DNA of 20,108 nt from a virus. Shown in pieces: positions 1,992 to 11,848 of the stretch (positions are counted from its first letter, which is position 1; every line of letters starts with the position of its first letter). The position numbers and the translations under genes are program-made. The stretch lies in the IMG/VR virus record IMGVR_UViG_3300023116_003441, positions 1 to 20,108 of that record. One strand, given 5' to 3'. The notes under the pieces are model-generated. The model was not told the DNA's origin. It ran no database searches and saw only the letters and a list, made by a program, of their open reading frames with translations.

Positions 1992-2632
1992 AAATCTTCC
2001 TAGACACAGCGGAGACTGATGTCATCCGCAAATATTTTGAAACGGGATTAGTCGATGGTGTTACTACCAATCCAACTCTTATTAGAAAGAGTGGACGTAG
2101 ACCAGAAGATGTGTATCAAGAGATTAAAGATATTGGTGTCAAAGACATTAGTATGGAAGTCTCTGGTGATGCACAGATGATGTATCGTGAGGGAGTTAGA
2201 TTGTCTGATAAGTTTGGTGATGTTACAACCATCAAACTTCCCTGTACTCGCGAAGGTCTTTTGGTATGTAAACAACTTAAGAAAGAACTAATTAGAACTA
2301 ACGTTACTCTTATCTTTAGTATTCCTCAGGCAGTTCTTGCTGCTAAAGCGGGTGCAACTTATGTCTCACCTTTTGTTGGTCGTCTTGATGATCAATCAGT
2401 TGCTGGTCTAGAAGTTGTCAGAGGGATTGCTGATATCTATCGTATTCATAATATTAGAACACAAGTTCTTTCCGCTTCTATTCGTACAGTCCAACGTGCA
2501 GTTAGATCCTGGTATAATGGCGCTCACATTTGCACTATGCCACCTAAGATCTTTGATCAAATGTATGATCATATTTTGACTGATAAGGGACTTGAAATTT
2601 TTGAAAATGATCTTAAACAGACACGTCTTTGA
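1988..2632 (+). CDS. talC: Transaldolase (TalC / F6P-aldolase-like family)
   Basis: A 214-aa protein of the short transaldolase family, a well-known cyanophage metabolic gene. It transfers a dihydroxyacetone unit between sugar phosphates in the pentose phosphate pathway, which in infected cyanobacteria favours NADPH and ribose for nucleotide synthesis. Visible signature: MKIFLDTAE at the start with the catalytic Asp6, then DGVTTNPTLI (23-32), the Schiff-base lysine in TTIKLP (Lys83), TYVSPFVGRLDD (124-135) and a C-terminal phosphate-binding region around SASIRT. The length matches the family (about 215-220 aa). The start is fixed by the ATGA overlap with the microprotein upstream; the 3' end overlaps the oxygenase gene. 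Confidence 0.95.
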   Translation: MKIFLDTAETDVIRKYFETGLVDGVTTNPTLIRKSGRRPEDVYQEIKDIGVKDISMEVSGDAQMMYREGVRLSDKFGDVTTIKLPCTREGLLVCKQLKKELIRTNVTLIFSIPQAVLAAKAGATYVSPFVGRLDDQSVAGLEVVRGIADIYRIHNIRTQVLSASIRTVQRAVRSWYNGAHICTMPPKIFDQMYDHILTDKGLEIFENDLKQTRL

Positions 2633-3209
2633 AACATTTTTAAATTCTAAAGTTGACCCAGATTACGATAAGTTTAGTGATAAACTAATCAAACTTTGTG
2701 AGGAATTACCTAGCAAAGAATCTGGAGTCAACTATAGTAATGCTGGAGGGTGGCAAAGTGAACCATTTAACTGGGATCATCCAAAATACCTTGGACCAGA
2801 AATGTTCTCTTATGTTCAAAACTCTATTATAGAATGTGTTAGAGACCTACCAGTAAAACAAAATGTGGGTGCATTATTCAAAAACTTTTGGATTAATGTA
2901 AATCCCCCAGGAACTTACAACACTACACATATTCATCCAGGCGCTCAGTTGTCTGGTATTTTTTATGTAAAAGTTCCTGACAATTCTGGTAACTTAGTAT
3001 TTGAAAATACTTTAGAGCAACATAATCCACTCTCTCAGTTCTTATACGGTGTTCCCACAGAAACTGCATCAGTTACTCCTACTGCTGGTCAAACCATAGT
3101 ATTCAATTCACATTTACCTCACTCTGTAGAATTGAATAGATCAACTGAAAGTAGAATTTCCATTGCTTTTAACATCTTGCTCAGTGTAAATAGTAATGAA
3201 GTAACTTAA
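2607..3209 (+). CDS. 2OG-Fe(II) oxygenase-like protein
   Basis: A 200-aa protein with the double-stranded beta-helix pattern of the phage/marine putative 2OG-Fe(II) oxygenase family (TIGR02466/PF13759 type). Residues 107-120 read THIHPGAQLSGIFY, holding the first metal His. About 60 residues later comes HLPHSVELN (distal His at 172), then ESRISIAFN with the Arg (183) that usually binds 2-oxoglutarate. A TTG at 2592 would extend it by five residues; I chose the ATG at 2607, which still overlaps talC by 26 bases. Such enzymes hydroxylate proteins, sugars or small molecules; the substrate is not evident. It lies two genes upstream of a halogenase-like flavoprotein, so both oxidative enzymes may act on related substrates (inference). 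Confidence 0.85.
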   Translation: MILNRHVFETFLNSKVDPDYDKFSDKLIKLCEELPSKESGVNYSNAGGWQSEPFNWDHPKYLGPEMFSYVQNSIIECVRDLPVKQNVGALFKNFWINVNPPGTYNTTHIHPGAQLSGIFYVKVPDNSGNLVFENTLEQHNPLSQFLYGVPTETASVTPTAGQTIVFNSHLPHSVELNRSTESRISIAFNILLSVNSNEVT

Positions 3210-3215
3210 CTCCAT

Positions 3216-3608
3216 ATGCAAATATGTACTCCAGAAGACTTCCTCTACAATCTACAAACGTTTTCATCAACCGAAGCAAAGAGACTCTGGAGACAACATA
3301 TAAAGGAAAAATGGGGAGAGCGATGTGCGTATTGTGGTAGCAAAGAAAATCTAACAATCGATCACATTGTCCCACAAATGAAAGGTGGGAACGACCACAT
3401 CACTAATGTTTTGTGCAGTTGTAATAAATGTAATAGTTCCAAGAGTCACTACGAGTGGCAAGATTGGTATGAAAGACAAGAGTTTTTCTCCCAAGCAAGA
3501 AAGCAAAAGATTGAAGAGTGGATCACTGCGAGGCAACGTGATGAAAATCGTGTTCCTTATGGCAAAAGAAAAAACAACGCAGTTAATTATCAAGTAAAGG
3601 TGGCATGA
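3216..3608 (+). CDS. HNH endonuclease
   Basis: A 130-aa protein with a textbook zinc-type HNH domain. CAYC (37-40) starts the zinc ribbon, TIDHIVP (47-53) carries the first catalytic His, Asn64 follows in HITNVL, and CNKCN (69-73) supplies the second Cys pair and final Asn. An N-terminal helical stretch and a basic tail (IEEWITARQRDENR onwards) may bind DNA. It is a free-standing gene, not inside an intron, six bases after the oxygenase and ATGA-coupled to the halogenase-like gene. It could be a homing endonuclease that brought its neighbours along, or a packaging or host-DNA nuclease; the sequence does not decide. No good Shine-Dalgarno is visible. Confidence 0.9.
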   Translation: MQICTPEDFLYNLQTFSSTEAKRLWRQHIKEKWGERCAYCGSKENLTIDHIVPQMKGGNDHITNVLCSCNKCNSSKSHYEWQDWYERQEFFSQARKQKIEEWITARQRDENRVPYGKRKNNAVNYQVKVA

Positions 3609-4789
3609 ACGTTGCTATTATTGGTCGAGGTACAAGTTCTATCGTACAGGCATGTATCTTTCTACAACATGGACATCATGTAACAATCTATTATGATCCT
3701 GATGTGCCCACTCTTTCAGTTGGAGAGGGCACTACTCCTCATGTAGATGAACTTTTAACACAAACTATAGGAATCAGTTTTAAAAGACTGGATCTGGCAG
3801 ATATTGTATCTGTTAAAAAGGCAGCAAAGTTTGTAAATTGGGGTAAAGGTAAAACTTTTTTTCATGATCTTAGTGGATTTGGTAGTTATCCAAATACAAA
3901 CTTTGCATATCATCTAGACACTCTAGAGTATAATAACTTTGTGCATCCTATTTTAGAAGCACATGGAGTTACTTATATACCTGAAAGAGTGACCAGTATT
4001 CAAGAAACTGAGGATGCTGTTGTAGTCAATGGCACCCCCTACGATTTTCTAGTCCATTGTAGTGGGTGGACGGATGGTGATGAGTATATGAAACCAGTTT
4101 TTACTACACTGAATGCTGCGTTTTTGCGCCCTGTAAATTATGCTGAGCACGAGACAGATGTAACAACTCATGAGGCAACTGAGGATGGGTGGCAATTCCA
4201 TATTCCTTTTCCAAAAAAAGGACAGGTGCGAAAGGGATACCTCTTCAACACAGATTATATTAGTCCAGAACAAGTTAAAGAAAAACTTGGAGAAGAAGGT
4301 AGAGTTGTAACGTGGACACCGAAACAATGTAAGTTTCTTTTTAGATCTAGAAGACAAGCATACAATGGAAATAAACTTTGTTTTGTTGAACCATTGCACG
4401 CATATTCGTTTGTAATGTACATCTATTTTGCAGAATTGATGTGCGAATATCTTAATGGTGAACGAAATAATTCTTCTGTATTTGATATGAACTCTGTGTA
4501 TCGTAGAGTTATGTTAGAATATCAAACTGAAGTTGCGTTTCATTATCAATATGGTTCGGTGTTTAAAACACCTTTCTGGATTAATATTCAAGACTCTGCA
4601 GAAAAAATGACCAGACATCATCATTCTGCAAGTAAAGAATGCATACAAGATATTATTGATAGTGGATATCCTAATCCAAAACCTTTTATAGATAAGGTAC
4701 AATACGGTGGTGATCATGCCATCCGTATTTTTGGGCATACCTTCTACGAATTATTGTACATTCACCAACAAATGAACCATGAAATTTAA
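3605..4789 (+). CDS. Flavin-dependent halogenase-like protein (tryptophan halogenase family)
   Basis: A 394-aa flavoprotein resembling PrnA-type tryptophan halogenases. Features: an N-terminal dinucleotide-binding fold with GRGTSS (7-12); VGEGTTP (39-45), the family VGExTxP motif; VKKAAKFVNW (70-79), in which Lys71 aligns with the catalytic lysine of PrnA; a second flavin motif at HCSGWTDGD (151-159); WQFHIP (196-201), a variant of the WxWxIP hallmark with Phe for the second Trp; and FVEPLHAY (260-267) where PrnA has EPLES. It is shorter than bacterial enzymes (about 500-540 aa), lacking much of the substrate-binding C-terminus. It probably uses FADH2, chloride or bromide and oxygen; the substrate is unknown and it may instead be a monooxygenase. 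It overlaps its neighbours by 4 and 11 bases. Confidence 0.85.
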   Translation: MNVAIIGRGTSSIVQACIFLQHGHHVTIYYDPDVPTLSVGEGTTPHVDELLTQTIGISFKRLDLADIVSVKKAAKFVNWGKGKTFFHDLSGFGSYPNTNFAYHLDTLEYNNFVHPILEAHGVTYIPERVTSIQETEDAVVVNGTPYDFLVHCSGWTDGDEYMKPVFTTLNAAFLRPVNYAEHETDVTTHEATEDGWQFHIPFPKKGQVRKGYLFNTDYISPEQVKEKLGEEGRVVTWTPKQCKFLFRSRRQAYNGNKLCFVEPLHAYSFVMYIYFAELMCEYLNGERNNSSVFDMNSVYRRVMLEYQTEVAFHYQYGSVFKTPFWINIQDSAEKMTRHHHSASKECIQDIIDSGYPNPKPFIDKVQYGGDHAIRIFGHTFYELLYIHQQMNHEI

Positions 4790-7280: not shown

Positions 7281-7448
7281 ATGACCGAAAAGCAAGAAAG
7301 ACTTAAATTGATCCTTGGCAACCTTTCTTTATTGATCGATTCTTTGTACGAAGAGTTGGAATTGAATCAACCTGCACCCCCTGAATACACTGAGGTTTTG
7401 GAATACTCTACCTATGCAGATACATATGATGAAGTATTTGAAGGTTGA
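7281..7448 (+). CDS. Unknown 55-aa acidic protein heading the carbamoyltransferase operon
   Basis: A 55-aa acidic protein, MTEKQERLKLILGNLSLLID then SLYEELELNQ, followed by a Pro- and Tyr-rich acidic tail. The N-terminal half is one amphipathic leucine-rich helix that could be a protein-protein interaction helix. A TTG at 7263 would extend the protein by six residues, but the predicted transcription start is downstream of it. The stop and the start of the next gene share a base (TGATG), tying it to the split carbamoyltransferase. No family is recognised. Confidence 0.65.
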   Translation: MTEKQERLKLILGNLSLLIDSLYEELELNQPAPPEYTEVLEYSTYADTYDEVFEG

Positions 7449-8395
7449 TGACTTATACTTTAGGTATCAATTTATCTCATGATGCATCTGTTTGTCTTTT
7501 GAAAGATGCTGAGATTGAAATATATTTGGAAGAGGAAAGAACAAGTAGAATTAAAAGAGATGACTTTCCTGCTACAGCATTCAATTCTTTAAGACGGCAT
7601 TTAACTGCACCACTAGACCATATTGTCTTAGTGAGTGCAAAGTATGTAATTCCTGAAGCGATAGAATATGTTTTATATTCTCTCAGGAAACATCATCTTA
7701 TGCACAAGGACACTCAGATTTATAATTATGAGGGTCGTCATCATGAGTGCCATGCAGCAAATGCTTTTTACTCTTCTGGATTTGAAGATGCTGGATGTTT
7801 AATCATGGATGGCAGTGGATCAAAAACTCCTACGGGAGTTGAAATTGAATCACACTACCATGCTTCTGGGAATGAATTCTTCCCAGTAAAGAAAATTACT
7901 TATGATGAAAACAATCCTGGGTCAATCAGCATTGGAAGAGCATTTGATCTAGTCGCCGTATACTGCGGTTTTAGCGCCCACGGGGACGCTGGAAAGGTTA
8001 TGGGGTTAGCACCCTATGGAAACGCTAGAAACGTCCCACAACTCTTCACAGAGGGCGGAGAGAGCGATCCTGAGATCATTACTTGGGATAATATAAATTT
8101 AGATGTGGAACCTGCCGATCTTGCCGCTAGAATACAGGAAGATAGTCTATCAGTATCTACCAATTCAATTAGAGATTTGATTTTTTACACTGGATGTGAT
8201 AATATATGTCTTAGTGGCGGATACTTTCTTAACTGCGTCAACAACTACGAGTATCTCAAAACATTTCCTGAGATAAAATTTTATGTAGATCCAATTTCTC
8301 ATGATGGTGGAACTGCTATTGGTGCGGCAAAACTTTTTTATTCAACACTTCATGAGTTCCAACCACGTAAACTAGAAACATTGTATTTGGGATGA
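7448..8395 (+). CDS. Carbamoyltransferase, Kae1-like N-domain subunit (copy 1)
   Basis: A 315-aa protein corresponding to the N-terminal Kae1-like domain of NodU/CmcH/TobZ O-carbamoyltransferases. It starts LGINLSHDASVCLL (5-18), with the His (11) that matches the proposed catalytic base. Metal-site residues known from TobZ are present: HHECH (His98, His102), IMDGSG (Asp121) and ISHDGGTAIGAA (Asp286). It also has GKVMGLAPYG and LSGGYFLNCVNNYEYL. It ends at TLYLG, exactly the interdomain linker in full-length enzymes (usually 550-600 aa), and the C-domain follows as a separate gene in an ATGA overlap. The pair should carbamoylate a hydroxyl or amine from carbamoyl phosphate and ATP; the acceptor is unknown. 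Confidence 0.9.
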   Translation: MTYTLGINLSHDASVCLLKDAEIEIYLEEERTSRIKRDDFPATAFNSLRRHLTAPLDHIVLVSAKYVIPEAIEYVLYSLRKHHLMHKDTQIYNYEGRHHECHAANAFYSSGFEDAGCLIMDGSGSKTPTGVEIESHYHASGNEFFPVKKITYDENNPGSISIGRAFDLVAVYCGFSAHGDAGKVMGLAPYGNARNVPQLFTEGGESDPEIITWDNINLDVEPADLAARIQEDSLSVSTNSIRDLIFYTGCDNICLSGGYFLNCVNNYEYLKTFPEIKFYVDPISHDGGTAIGAAKLFYSTLHEFQPRKLETLYLG

Positions 8396-8946
8396 AAGCA
8401 AATTACTCTACAGTAGTTGACTTACTACTTGACCAAAAAATCGTTGCTCTTTTCCAAGGAAGATCTGAAGCAGGTCCCAGAGCACTTGGGAATAGATCTA
8501 TTCTATTTGATCCAAGGAATCCTAACGCCAAAGATATTGTCAATCGGGTTAAGAGGAGAGAATCTTTTCGACCGTTCGCCGCTTCTGTACTTTTGGAAGA
8601 AGCACCAAAATGGTTTGACATGCGTGGTCTAAAAGAAAGTCCTTTTATGATGTACGCTATGGACGCTTTTGAGGAAGGATGGGAAAAGATACCTGGAGTT
8701 CTACATGTTGATAACACATGCAGAATCCAAACGGTTACCAAAAGTCAGAACAAACACTACTATAATCTAATTAAAGAATTTTTTGAGAGGACAGAAGTCC
8801 CAATGCTGTTCAATACATCATTTAATCTGGCGGGTGAACCACTGGTTCATACCATGGATGATGCACTTGACACACTGCGCCGAAGTGAGATAGAATACCT
8901 CTATCTTCCTGAATTAGAAGAACTCATTACTGTCAAAAACACATGA
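8392..8946 (+). CDS. Carbamoyltransferase, YrdC-like C-domain subunit
   Basis: A 184-aa protein matching the C-terminal domain (Carbam_trans_C) of the same enzymes, which in TobZ makes carbamoyl-adenylate from carbamoyl phosphate and ATP. Hallmarks in order: FQGRSEAGPRALGNRSILFD (21-40), KRRESFRPFAASVL (54-67), VDNTCRIQTV, and PMLFNTSFNLAGEPLVHT with the NTSFN..GEP motif. All expected motifs are intact, so it looks functional. It starts by ATGA overlap with the N-domain gene and ends by ATGA overlap with thyX. It is the only C-domain in the window, although a second N-domain gene follows, so it may serve both. Confidence 0.9.
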   Translation: MKANYSTVVDLLLDQKIVALFQGRSEAGPRALGNRSILFDPRNPNAKDIVNRVKRRESFRPFAASVLLEEAPKWFDMRGLKESPFMMYAMDAFEEGWEKIPGVLHVDNTCRIQTVTKSQNKHYYNLIKEFFERTEVPMLFNTSFNLAGEPLVHTMDDALDTLRRSEIEYLYLPELEELITVKNT

Positions 8947-9581
8947 TTCATACTGCAACTCTTGTCTCTGTTACTCCTGATGCAGAGAAAAACATTGCTT
9001 ATTGTGCTCGTGTAAGTAATCCAGCAAATCAAGAGAATGAATCTTTTGAGGGTCTGCTGCGTTATTGCATCAAACATAAACACTGGAGTATTTTTGAACA
9101 AGCATTTATGACTCTGGAGTTGAATACTACTAGAGCAATCGCTGCTCAAGTGCTGCGTCATCGCAGTATGACATATCAGGAATTTTCTCAAAGATACGCT
9201 GACGCTACTCTTTTGTCTAAAGATATTCCTCTACCCGATCTACGTCGTCAAGACACAAAGAACCGTCAGAATTCTATTGATGATCTTGATCCTTTCGTTC
9301 AACAGAAACTAGAGATGCAGATGCAAACTCTATTTTCTTCTGCTCAAGCACTGTATGAACAGATGCTTGCTGAGGGTGTGGCAAAGGAATGTGCAAGAAA
9401 TGTTCTTCCTTTGTGTGTACCAACCAGAATGTATATGTCGGGATCACTGAGGTCTTGGATGCATTACATTGATCTGCGTACTGCTAATGGTACGCAAAAA
9501 GAACACATGATGCTTGCAGAATCTTGTAAGCAAATTTTTAAAGAACAATTCCCCGTAATTTCAGGAGCAATGGACTGGTGA
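8943..9581 (+). CDS. thyX: Flavin-dependent thymidylate synthase
   Basis: A 212-aa ThyX, which methylates dUMP to dTMP using methylene-tetrahydrofolate, FAD and NADPH, and is found in many cyanophages. The ThyX signature RHRxxSxxExSxRY appears as RHRSMTYQEFSQRY (72-85), with Thr in place of the usual Ser in the middle. Other family features: HWSIFEQAFMTLEL (47-60), where His and Glu bind flavin/dUMP; ARNVLPLCVPTRMYMSG; and SWMHYIDLRTANGTQKE. The length matches the family. It sits inside the carbamoyltransferase cluster with ATGA and GTGA overlaps, so it is co-transcribed. This may just be gene packing, or may link the carbamoyltransferases to nucleotide metabolism (inference). Confidence 0.95.
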   Translation: MIHTATLVSVTPDAEKNIAYCARVSNPANQENESFEGLLRYCIKHKHWSIFEQAFMTLELNTTRAIAAQVLRHRSMTYQEFSQRYADATLLSKDIPLPDLRRQDTKNRQNSIDDLDPFVQQKLEMQMQTLFSSAQALYEQMLAEGVAKECARNVLPLCVPTRMYMSGSLRSWMHYIDLRTANGTQKEHMMLAESCKQIFKEQFPVISGAMDW

Positions 9582-9793
9582 AAAAACTTATTCGTAAACT
9601 TCAGCAAAACGTATCTTCAACTCGCATGACCTTTCTTTCGGTCGCTGCTGTAGTTGCTATTGGAAATACTCTGACTGGTTGGACAGTGATCTCTTGGATT
9701 CTTTGGATTCCACCTATCGCACTTACTGCTGCCGCCATCACTGGAGTCTGCCCATTTAAAATCATCTGGGAAAAACTTGGATTTAAAGACTGA
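9578..9793 (+). CDS. YgaP-like (DUF2892-type) two-helix membrane protein
   Basis: A 71-aa membrane protein with a GTG start overlapping the thyX stop (GTGA) and a Shine-Dalgarno AGGAG about 11 bases upstream. After a basic amphipathic N-terminus (KKLIRKLQQNVSSTRM) there are two hydrophobic segments (about 17-32 and 36-56), then TGVCPFKIIWEKLG, which matches the TGxCPxYxxLG signature of the YgaP-like transmembrane family (DUF2892). The conserved Cys follows the second helix. In bacteria this module is often attached to rhodanese domains; here it stands alone. The stop shares a base with the next gene's start (TGATG). Confidence 0.8.
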   Translation: MKKLIRKLQQNVSSTRMTFLSVAAVVAIGNTLTGWTVISWILWIPPIALTAAAITGVCPFKIIWEKLGFKD

Positions 9794-10821
9794 TGTACAT
9801 TCTAGGTATCAACATTTCTCACCACGCTTCAGTGTGCTTGTTGAAGAACGGGCATGTTGTATACCATATTGAGGAAGAAAGACTTAACAAAAGAAAGTAC
9901 TGGGGACCCAACGAAACAGATCATTATTACAAATCAATTACTGCACTCACACAATTTACAAAAAGAATTGATCGTGTAGTTTTTGCTGGCGTTGGCGAAC
10001 CGTTTGAGATGGATGTGATTCAAAGTATCCATGATCAACTTTTTAGTCTAGGTTTGATTGGTGAACAAGCAAACCATCATTATGCACCTACGCAACACCA
10101 TCTATATCATGCAGCATGTGCATTCTACAACTCTGGATTCAAAGATGCTGCAGCACTGATTGTTGATGGTGGTGGTGCTAAGATCCGTGATGGCGTGAAC
10201 GAGGGTGAATCTATTTACCGTTGTTCTTATCCACATAAGATTGAAGGTGAGTGGCAGCACAGATTTAACTTTTATCAGATCGAAGAAGCATTTGAATTCA
10301 AAAATGCTGATGGTGAGTTATTCAGTTCACACATTACTGCGGGTAGTTTGTTCAACAACTTCGGTGACAAACTAGGATTTAATGGTGGATTTGATGCTGG
10401 AAAGTTGATGGGATTGGCAAGTTATGGTACAATAGTAGATGATGAGAGTTGGTACATGAACTTTGAGGGTGTTCAGATGACAAAAAACAGTGTCATCATT
10501 GATCGTCTCAAAGCAGATTATCCAACCTTTGAGGATCGAGCAAATCTTGCCAAGAAACTCCAAGTAGAAACTGCTAAGCACACCAGACATCTCATCAAAA
10601 AGTGTTTGGAGATTTCTCCCAGAGTTGTTCTGAGTGGTGGGTATTTTCTCAATTGTGTCAACAACTATGAATACTTAGATTTGTTCGACGATCCATCTAA
10701 TCTCTACATAGAACCGAATTCATCGGACGCTGGCACTGCACTAGGGATAGCAAAACTATTTCACTATGCATTGTCTCAGAAGAAGACACCAATCCCCTTG
10801 AAAACCCTCTATATGGGTTAA
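9793..10821 (+). CDS. Carbamoyltransferase, Kae1-like N-domain protein (copy 2)
   Basis: A 342-aa paralogue of the N-domain subunit at 7448. Shared landmarks: LGINISHHASVCLL (4-17), HHLYH (His102, His106), IVDGGG (Asp125), GKLMGLASYG, and LSGGYFLNCVNNYEYL, identical over 16 residues to copy 1, then SSDAGTALGIAKLF. It ends at TLYMG, the same interdomain point, but no C-domain gene follows. It differs from copy 1 by an extra internal segment (about 145-180, rich in aromatic residues) and by His in place of Asp in the SHDAS motif. It likely relies on the single C-domain subunit, giving the phage two acceptor specificities (inference). A late-type promoter motif follows its stop. Confidence 0.88.
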   Translation: MYILGINISHHASVCLLKNGHVVYHIEEERLNKRKYWGPNETDHYYKSITALTQFTKRIDRVVFAGVGEPFEMDVIQSIHDQLFSLGLIGEQANHHYAPTQHHLYHAACAFYNSGFKDAAALIVDGGGAKIRDGVNEGESIYRCSYPHKIEGEWQHRFNFYQIEEAFEFKNADGELFSSHITAGSLFNNFGDKLGFNGGFDAGKLMGLASYGTIVDDESWYMNFEGVQMTKNSVIIDRLKADYPTFEDRANLAKKLQVETAKHTRHLIKKCLEISPRVVLSGGYFLNCVNNYEYLDLFDDPSNLYIEPNSSDAGTALGIAKLFHYALSQKKTPIPLKTLYMG

Positions 10822-10838: not shown

Positions 10839-11096
10839 ATGGTAATTATGGCAACTTATCCTGTAATTCATAAGGAGACTGGTGAACAAAAAGAAGTGAG
10901 CATGAGTGTTCACGACTGGTCTCAGTGGTGTAAAGACAACCCCGATTGGCAACGTGATTGGTCAGACCCATCTACTTGTCCTTCATCTGGTGAAGTCGGT
11001 GAGTGGAAAGATAAACTACGTAAGTCCAGACCTGGATGGAACGACGTGCTTAAGAAAGCACAACAAGCACCTGGATCTAGAGTGAAAACACTATGA
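10839..11096 (+). CDS. Unknown conserved-looking cyanophage protein upstream of phoH
   Basis: An 85-aa soluble protein. Two in-frame ATGs (10839 and 10848) are possible; the second gives MATYPVIHKETGEQ and seems the more natural start, though neither has a strong Shine-Dalgarno. The protein is Trp- and Asp-rich (SVHDWSQWCKDNPDWQRDW), followed by a Ser/Pro/Gly-rich linker and a basic C-terminal helix (WNDVLKKAQQAPG). It resembles a small protein widely conserved in T4-like cyanophages with no known role. It overlaps phoH as ATGA, and has its own late-type motif just upstream, so it may head the phoH-gp33 operon at late times. Confidence 0.75.
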   Translation: MVIMATYPVIHKETGEQKEVSMSVHDWSQWCKDNPDWQRDWSDPSTCPSSGEVGEWKDKLRKSRPGWNDVLKKAQQAPGSRVKTL

Positions 11097-11848
11097 CGGT
11101 TAAGAAAAGAAGAGGTTCTGATCCCATCGGCGTTGGCATGACTGCTAAGCAGATGAAGAGGAAGAAACCAATCAACAGTGCCATGATGACAGAGGTGCTG
11201 CCACTTACTCCTAATCAGGAGAAGTTGTTTGCATCTTATAAAGAGCAAAAGAACCTCTTTGTTTCTGGTGTTGCTGGTACTGGCAAGACTTTCTGTGTTC
11301 TATACCAAGCACTACAGGAAGTCTTAAACGAGATGTCACCATATGAAAAGGTGATCATTGTCAGATCTCTTGTTTCTACCAGAGAGATTGGTTTCCTTCC
11401 TGGAGATCATGAAGACAAAGCAGACATTTACCAAATTCCATACAAGAATATGGTAAAATATATGTTTGAGTTGGCAAGCGATAGTGACTTTGAGATGCTG
11501 TATGGCAACCTCAAGCAACAGGAGAGTATTAAATTCTGGAGCACGTCATTCATTCGCGGAACCACTCTAAACGATTGTATTATTATCGTTGATGAATCTC
11601 AAAACTTGAATTTTCATGAACTTGATAGTATAATTACTCGTGTGGGTGAAAACTGTAAGATCATGTTCTGCGGTGACGCCACACAAACTGATCTAGTAAA
11701 AACCTATGAGAAGAATGGAATCCTAGATTTCATGAAAATCATTCAAAACATGTCAGAATTTGATTGTATTGAATTTACAACTGATGACATTGTTAGATCT
11801 GGTTTGCTTAAGAGTTACCTTATCAACAAGTATGCCCTTGGACTATGA
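11093..11848 (+). CDS. phoH: PhoH-family P-loop ATPase
   Basis: A 251-aa PhoH-type protein, found in nearly all T4-like cyanophages. Walker A is GVAGTGKT (59-66), preceded by LTPNQEKLFASYKEQKNLFVS, the usual PhoH entry. Walker B is CIIIVDESQNL. FCGDATQTDL is motif III, and TTDDIVRSGLL supplies the C-terminal arginine motif. A basic N-terminal extension (KKRRGSDPIGVG, then KQMKRKK) is typical of cyanophage forms. PhoH proteins are RNA/DNA-linked ATPases and are used as cyanophage diversity markers; their precise role in infection is unsettled, and a tie to phosphate starvation is not shown by this sequence. The gene is ATGA-coupled on both sides. Confidence 0.93.
   Translation: MTVKKRRGSDPIGVGMTAKQMKRKKPINSAMMTEVLPLTPNQEKLFASYKEQKNLFVSGVAGTGKTFCVLYQALQEVLNEMSPYEKVIIVRSLVSTREIGFLPGDHEDKADIYQIPYKNMVKYMFELASDSDFEMLYGNLKQQESIKFWSTSFIRGTTLNDCIIIVDESQNLNFHELDSIITRVGENCKIMFCGDATQTDLVKTYEKNGILDFMKIIQNMSEFDCIEFTTDDIVRSGLLKSYLINKYALGL

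Follow-up and report, generated by a model that had tools for sequence, protein, structure and literature searches.

The 20,108 bases of the IMG/VR virus record IMGVR_UViG_3300023116_003441 (hereafter the window), part of a larger phage genome, encode a class III O-carbamoyltransferase of the NodU/CmcH/TobZ family as separated domains: two Kae1-like transferase subunits, N1 and N2, and one YrdC-like subunit, C. The phage is T4-like, with the cyanophage-type neighbours talC, PhoH, gp59 and an RbpA-like protein. I consider it probable, at about 0.6, that the single C serves both N1 and N2 in a modular enzyme. The genes concerned are as follows:

7448..8395, + strand (ATG at 7448): N1, stand-alone Kae1-like transferase subunit, 315 amino acids, PF02543, C-terminal TLYLG
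8392..8946, + strand: C, stand-alone YrdC-like subunit, 184 amino acids, PF16861, expected to synthesize carbamoyl-AMP
8943..9581, + strand: thyX (PF02511), operon member outside the enzyme
9578..9793, + strand: small membrane protein, weak YgaP-like transmembrane match below the Pfam cut-off
9793..10821, + strand: N2, second Kae1-like transferase subunit, 342 amino acids, PF02543, C-terminal TLYMG
10839..11096, + strand: RbpA-like transcription regulator (phrog_385), syntenic marker 3' of N2
11093..11848, + strand: phoH, syntenic marker

The five genes from N1 to N2 are consecutive, and each overlaps the next by 1–4 bases, with the junctions ATGA (N1/C and C/thyX), GTGA (thyX/membrane gene) and TGATG (membrane gene/N2). 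N1 and N2 match PF02543 (Carbam_trans_N; E=1.7e-25 and 5.4e-16, respectively), and C matches PF16861 (Carbam_trans_C; E=7.7e-62). No match to the TsaD or Sua5/YrdC Pfam families was found in N1, N2 or C at E≤0.01; the only other match at this threshold is HypF_C_2 for N1, below the cut-off, while N2 matches PF02543 only and C matches PF16861 only. All three proteins fall under "Nol-like carbamoyltransferase" in PHROGs. The predicted structure of N2 (predicted local distance difference test score, pLDDT, of 92.5) matches the TobZ and NovN N-domains over residues 1–342, tail included, with Z of 29.4–29.8, a root-mean-square deviation (rmsd) of 2.6–2.8 and ∼300 residues aligned (TobZ: Z 29.7, rmsd 2.7, 301 residues). 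That of C (pLDDT 91.7) matches the C-domain of VtdB, TobZ and GdmN with TMq of 0.88–0.92. Lys54 and Ser143 of C are invariant, and I read them as the counterparts of TobZ K443 and S530.

The initial annotation had described an enzyme chain cut between N1 and C with an ATGA overlap, N1 ending in TLYLG, and a second N protein stopping at the same linker point (TLYMG). Its coordinates and junctions are correct, and N2 does stop there. An assembly or sequencing frameshift, which it had raised as a concern, is ruled out as the cause of the split, since four further, near-identical IMG/VR contigs (L006; L007/L041; L008/L043/L115; L009/L042) show the same junction between N1 and C. These differ from the window by 0–22 bases in N1, C, thyX or N2, and in two of them N1 and C are identical to the window's; separate open reading frames (ORFs) for the two domains are thus found in the window and in all four. 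The placement of the cut in the interdomain linker is likewise supported by spacing: the distance from LYxG to the GPRAL motif has a median of 48 residues (range 12–50) in 78 fused ORFs, and in C this motif lies 27 residues from the initial Met.

Both N proteins have the residues expected of an active transferase. The Fe ligands (two His and two Asp) and the general-base His, as listed in the accessible text of PMC9633730, are kept in N2 (H10, H102, H106, D125 and D312), with equivalents in N1; the earlier statement that both keep the metal-site residues is therefore confirmed, and applies to the general base too. N1 and N2 are identical at 120 of 308 aligned residues. They do share the identical 16-residue stretch pointed out previously, but this does not mark a special tie between the two, because it is a family motif: among the 355 N-domain ORFs from viral loci, counted without deduplication of overlapping loci, 35 contain the same 16-mer. 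I accordingly rejected it as evidence of a recent duplication; the tree described below also separates N1 from the clade of N2.

The class III O-carbamoyltransferases (NodU, CmcH, TobZ, GdmN, NovN, VtdB) resemble the window proteins in their two domains, Pfam families, Fe ligands, general base and expected chemistry. The characterised members are, however, one chain, whereas the window has separate N and C genes, and more N than C. In order to place this arrangement, all loci gathered by five viral scans were searched with profiles, and unique interior genes were counted. Three of the five scans used N proteins as query, and the loci extend at most 6–9 kb on each side; the numbers are hence counts among the matches listed, and not frequencies in nature. 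They comprise 109 stand-alone N, 75 stand-alone C and 101 fused genes, the order N->C accounting for 69 N and 62 C genes, and C->N for 14 N and 10 C genes. In bacteria and archaea, 79 of the 80 best loci, from at least 583 relatives, contain a fused enzyme; the exception, L367, has C in a 367-residue ORF with a weak N remnant, and locus L364 has an additional C ORF cut by the locus end. The initial annotation had presented the split as a departure from a one-chain norm. That norm describes the cellular loci, but the split by itself is not rare in the marine phages searched.

Several sequenced phages possess such genes. In GenBank, S-RIM44 and Sf-CH3 have the order thyX-C-N-rbpA-phoH, with C and N as separate genes. 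Together with S-SCSM1, their "Nol-like carbamoyltransferase" genes are similar to those of the window in having separate N and C in a thyX-rbpA-phoH neighbourhood, but their clusters have N:C ratios of 1:1 or 2:2, while the window has 2:1, with C upstream of thyX and adjoining N1. S-SCSM1 (L001, 4653–8235) has the order thyX-C-N-C-N, in tandem separate C-N units, plus a fused copy elsewhere in its genome; the main text of its paper (PMC9602691) does not mention carbamoyl or nol. A fused carbamoyltransferase ORF of S-SCSM2R (L156, 3001–4593) is annotated as a 2-oxoglutarate-Fe(II) (2OG-Fe(II)) oxygenase, and the carbamoyltransferase coding sequence annotated in S-CAM9 (L165, 1498–2646) is, at 1149 bp, shorter than the 504-residue open frame given by profile searches. 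Split class III carbamoyltransferases are not described in the literature searched (titles and starts of abstracts, most subscription journals being out of scope). The window enzyme is a genuine modular form of a known family, and this literature does not describe it.

The more notable feature is the excess of N over C, and this recurs. Within the viral loci, a separate C is missing from the 300 bp around 25 of the 109 stand-alone N genes; 19 of these have neither C nor a fused gene nearby, and six adjoin a fused enzyme. Conversely, an N lies within 300 bp of all but one of the 75 stand-alone C genes (74), and ∼600 bp upstream of the remaining one (L100), so that true orphans number none of 75 among the matches listed. 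The loci obtained with C queries, which would favour orphan C genes, show the same (0/13 C without N, against 12/26 N without separate C), as do those from N queries (1/57, namely L100, against 10/75). Among 22 phage genome records, selected as matches, N equals C in 20 and exceeds it by one in Sf-FS3 (3:2) and S-SSM7 (4:3); C exceeds N in none. The check suggested at the outset, looking in cyanophage genomes for C near each N, gives a recurrent N excess and no orphan C in the loci and records covered. Two contigs carry a diverged, contiguous N-C-N trio in overlapping open frames (L103:2623–5116 and L104:3132–5625), with one C per contig; the N proteins of the trio pair as sister paralogues, whereas N1 and N2 are distant from each other. 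A quick tree built from 212 N domains needs a minimum of eight changes (gains or losses) to explain the extra-N state, and all five catalytic residues are kept in 19 of the 19 N genes without any C within 300 bp. Separately, a very diverged 305-residue N-like protein lies near a fused copy in L015 (10758–11672, − strand), on a long branch; its membership in the family is unsure.

I then considered which of the two N proteins is the resident. It had been assumed that N2 is a C-less second copy to N1, but gene order and trees point the other way. N2 stands where the N of thyX-C-N-rbpA-phoH stands in S-RIM44 and Sf-CH3 (hereafter the thyX slot); other relatives have the orders thyX-rbpA-C-N-phoH or, without C, thyX-rbpA-N-phoH. 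In a careful tree, N2 belongs to a clade of 36 stand-alone N proteins with support of 100/99 and no fused member, and N1 lies outside it. As S-RIM44 and Sf-CH3 have exactly one C and one N, as separate genes, a separate C evidently serves N proteins of the N2 group. From this order and these trees, N2 is most simply read as the resident transferase and N1 as an addition, C now lying next to N1 and upstream of thyX. The C-less thyX-slot rows are nested among C-bearing rows of the tree, which suggests that their clade arose by loss of C. Within the 24-row subclade of N2, the LYxG tail is kept in 11 C-neighbouring rows, in N2, and in L087, whose contig starts at N; it is absent from the 11 C-less thyX-slot rows. 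The tail of N2 fits continued use of a separate C.

The origin of C was assessed with constrained trees. Placing it with the thyX-slot C proteins gave a log-likelihood (lnL) 2.45 above the free tree (approximately unbiased test, p-AU 0.60), and placing it with the C of S-MS29-type fused enzymes gave one 11.4 lower (p-AU 0.26). A derivation from the latter is thus the worse of the two, and I set it aside, although neither grouping is rejected.

These observations make the service of N1 and N2 by one C, as originally put forward, the best-supported reading, on the strength of the recurrent N excess and the lack of orphan C among the genes counted; the accompanying view of N2 as a second copy that lacks a C needs revision. 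In enzymes of this type the YrdC-like domain adenylates and the Kae1-like domain transfers, the labile intermediate following a ∼20 Å path between the two sites (PMC6022934 and PMC9633730, in the parts available). An N without a C should be inert, and N2 must therefore borrow one; the C closest to it is that of its own operon. In the mechanism I propose, C would bind carbamoyl phosphate and ATP to form carbamoyl-AMP. Both N1 and N2 would dock on C, either one after the other or as parts of distinct complexes, the labile carbamoyl-AMP would reach N through the domain interface, and the Fe site of N1 or N2 would transfer the carbamoyl group to a hydroxyl of its own acceptor. I infer both the physical service of the two N by C and the difference between their acceptors. 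More broadly, and as a tentative proposal with slightly less than an even chance, marine T4-like phages may possess a plug-in system, in which a single carbamoyl-adenylate subunit, or else the C-domain of one fused enzyme, is common to several acceptor-specific N subunits, each free to be duplicated, exchanged and moved independently, so that the acceptor range is widened by adding a 1-kb transferase half.

Several points weigh against this. The N tree does not settle the placement of N1, the N2 subclade has support of only 95/75, and the C tree has no resolution around the window C. The C-less thyX-slot N genes group in a single clade and hence count as one event. LYxG is absent from most N->C genes (66 of 69) and from a few C->N genes (3 of 14), as well as from 14 of the 19 N without C nearby and all six adjoining a fused enzyme. 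Since most N->C genes do without it, it is not a strict docking signal, and I discarded it as a general one; the subclade pattern concerns a single clade. The general-base His is lost in four of the six N genes adjoining a fused enzyme, all of one lineage. Most extra N genes of other phages occur beside or with fused enzymes and not with a lone C, and they therefore support the lending of C only by analogy; moreover, fused copies coexist with split pairs in G007, G014, G020, G027 and S-SCSM1. Among the 25 N genes without a separate C within 300 bp, L100 (C ∼600 bp away), L015 (very diverged) and L262 (a 4.8-kb contig) are doubtful. The N-C complexes themselves are putative, known here from genes and from predicted folds of single chains, and the genome beyond the window may hold a second C, or a fused enzyme lending its own.

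This last point underlies the alternative that survives best, though I judge it unlikely: C would pair with N1 only, and N2 would rely on a different C, encoded on its own or within a fused enzyme, elsewhere in a genome of which the window is an incomplete part. The ATGA overlap couples N1 directly to C, and a thyX-slot N can live without an adjacent C: of 23 records examined in which such an N has no C beside it, 8 have a C-domain at another place (8 of the 9 with a length of at least 17 kb), in ORFs that are fused or truncated by the end of the contig. However, the C-less thyX-slot proteins have lost the LYxG tail that N2 keeps, orphans are lacking among the 75 stand-alone C genes, and in S-RIM44 and Sf-CH3 the slot N is paired with a separate C and the genome has no fused copy. 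A second C dedicated to N2 had been named from the start as evidence against sharing; one C is found in the 20.1-kb window and one in a 35.6-kb relative, a comparison that covers these stretches.

It is less probable still that N2 (or N1) is a structural or regulatory partner, in a GdmN-like N1-N2 heterodimer around one C. In the GdmN homodimer, loop 4' is lent to the neighbour's pocket, according to the accessible text of PMC9633730, and in one lineage (L189, L190, L193 and L223) a fused enzyme is followed by an overlapping extra N, both with Fe ligands kept but with the general-base His replaced, by Lys in the fused N and by Asn in the extra N. Yet the same source describes GdmN dimerisation as occurring mainly via an extra C-terminal domain, for which the 184-residue C has no room, and the five catalytic residues are intact in N1, in N2 and in the 19 N genes mentioned above.

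Two further explanations are very improbable. N1-C could be a freshly split ordinary enzyme and N2 a non-functional leftover, as the loss of C from the C-N unit of the thyX slot in a related clade might suggest, but N2 differs from its counterpart in L043 by 22 bases and a single amino acid, its catalytic residues are intact, and its C-less relatives are under purifying selection (pairwise dN/dS of 0.05–0.27 where dS could be estimated). Nor is N2 likely to act without a phage YrdC-like partner, on host-made carbamoyl-AMP or some other donor from the host: tail-less, C-less N genes do persist under selection, and the N6-threonylcarbamoyladenosine (t6A) pathway has Sua5/YRDC as a protein distinct from Kae1/Qri7 (PMC9654439, in part), but carbamoyl-AMP is labile and passed internally in the carbamoyltransferase family (PMC6022934, in part), and N2 retains the tail of its C-paired relatives.

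The t6A system nonetheless offers a precedent for one C shared by N1 and N2, as there a single type of YrdC-like adenylate maker, Sua5/YRDC, supplies two Kae1-type transferases, Kae1 (in KEOPS) and Qri7/OSGEPL1. It differs in that the families are distinct, the group is threonylcarbamoyl, the acceptor is tRNA, and the transferases are in different compartments (PMC9654439, as far as available).

As for the acceptors of N1 and N2, I would guess, with little confidence, at small molecules that bear a hydroxyl (sugars or nucleotides) in preference to genomic cytosine. In P-SSM2, S-CAM1, S-CAM3, Sf-FS3 and S-SSM7 the fused relatives have genes for heptose and other sugars around them, whereas the thyX slot is surrounded by nucleotide and replication genes. 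DNA, one of the acceptors suggested by the initial annotation, has little support. The DNA carbamoyltransferase found by MetaGPA is a phage-type member of the same Pfam pair but, as described in the accessible parts of PMC8670742, it is one 63-kDa chain acting on 5-hydroxymethylcytosine, and the gene it co-occurs with is not ThyX but a ThyA-family (PF00303) homologue taken as a dCMP hydroxymethylase. No PF00303 match was found among the 17 proteins of the 20-kb window scanned with Pfam, where the operon neighbour is ThyX (PF02511). The C-domain motif GPRALxNxx also differs, being GPRALCNTT in the assayed MetaGPA enzyme and GPRALGNRS in the window C; the positions of TobZ W408, G421 and R423 have been linked to modified DNA, and their mapping onto this motif is my own reading. 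I likewise rejected an identity with aspartate carbamoyltransferase (pyrBI), which is incompatible with PF02543 and PF16861. Two cyanophage papers, in their accessible text, assign a pyrimidine-synthesis role to a carbamoyltransferase; if they mean these genes, as seems to be so, the domains (PF02543 and PF16861) argue against that role.

If the sharing of C is correct, a family described as two-domain enzymes would be divisible into one module for the donor and interchangeable ones for the acceptors, which would offer a natural route to engineering carbamoylation specificity, and the unexplained cyanophage "nol" carbamoyltransferases would become directly testable, N by N.

Upstream of the carbamoyltransferase operon, at 2592–4789, the window encodes consecutively a 2OG-Fe(II) oxygenase, an HNH endonuclease and a 394-residue tryptophan-halogenase-like protein.

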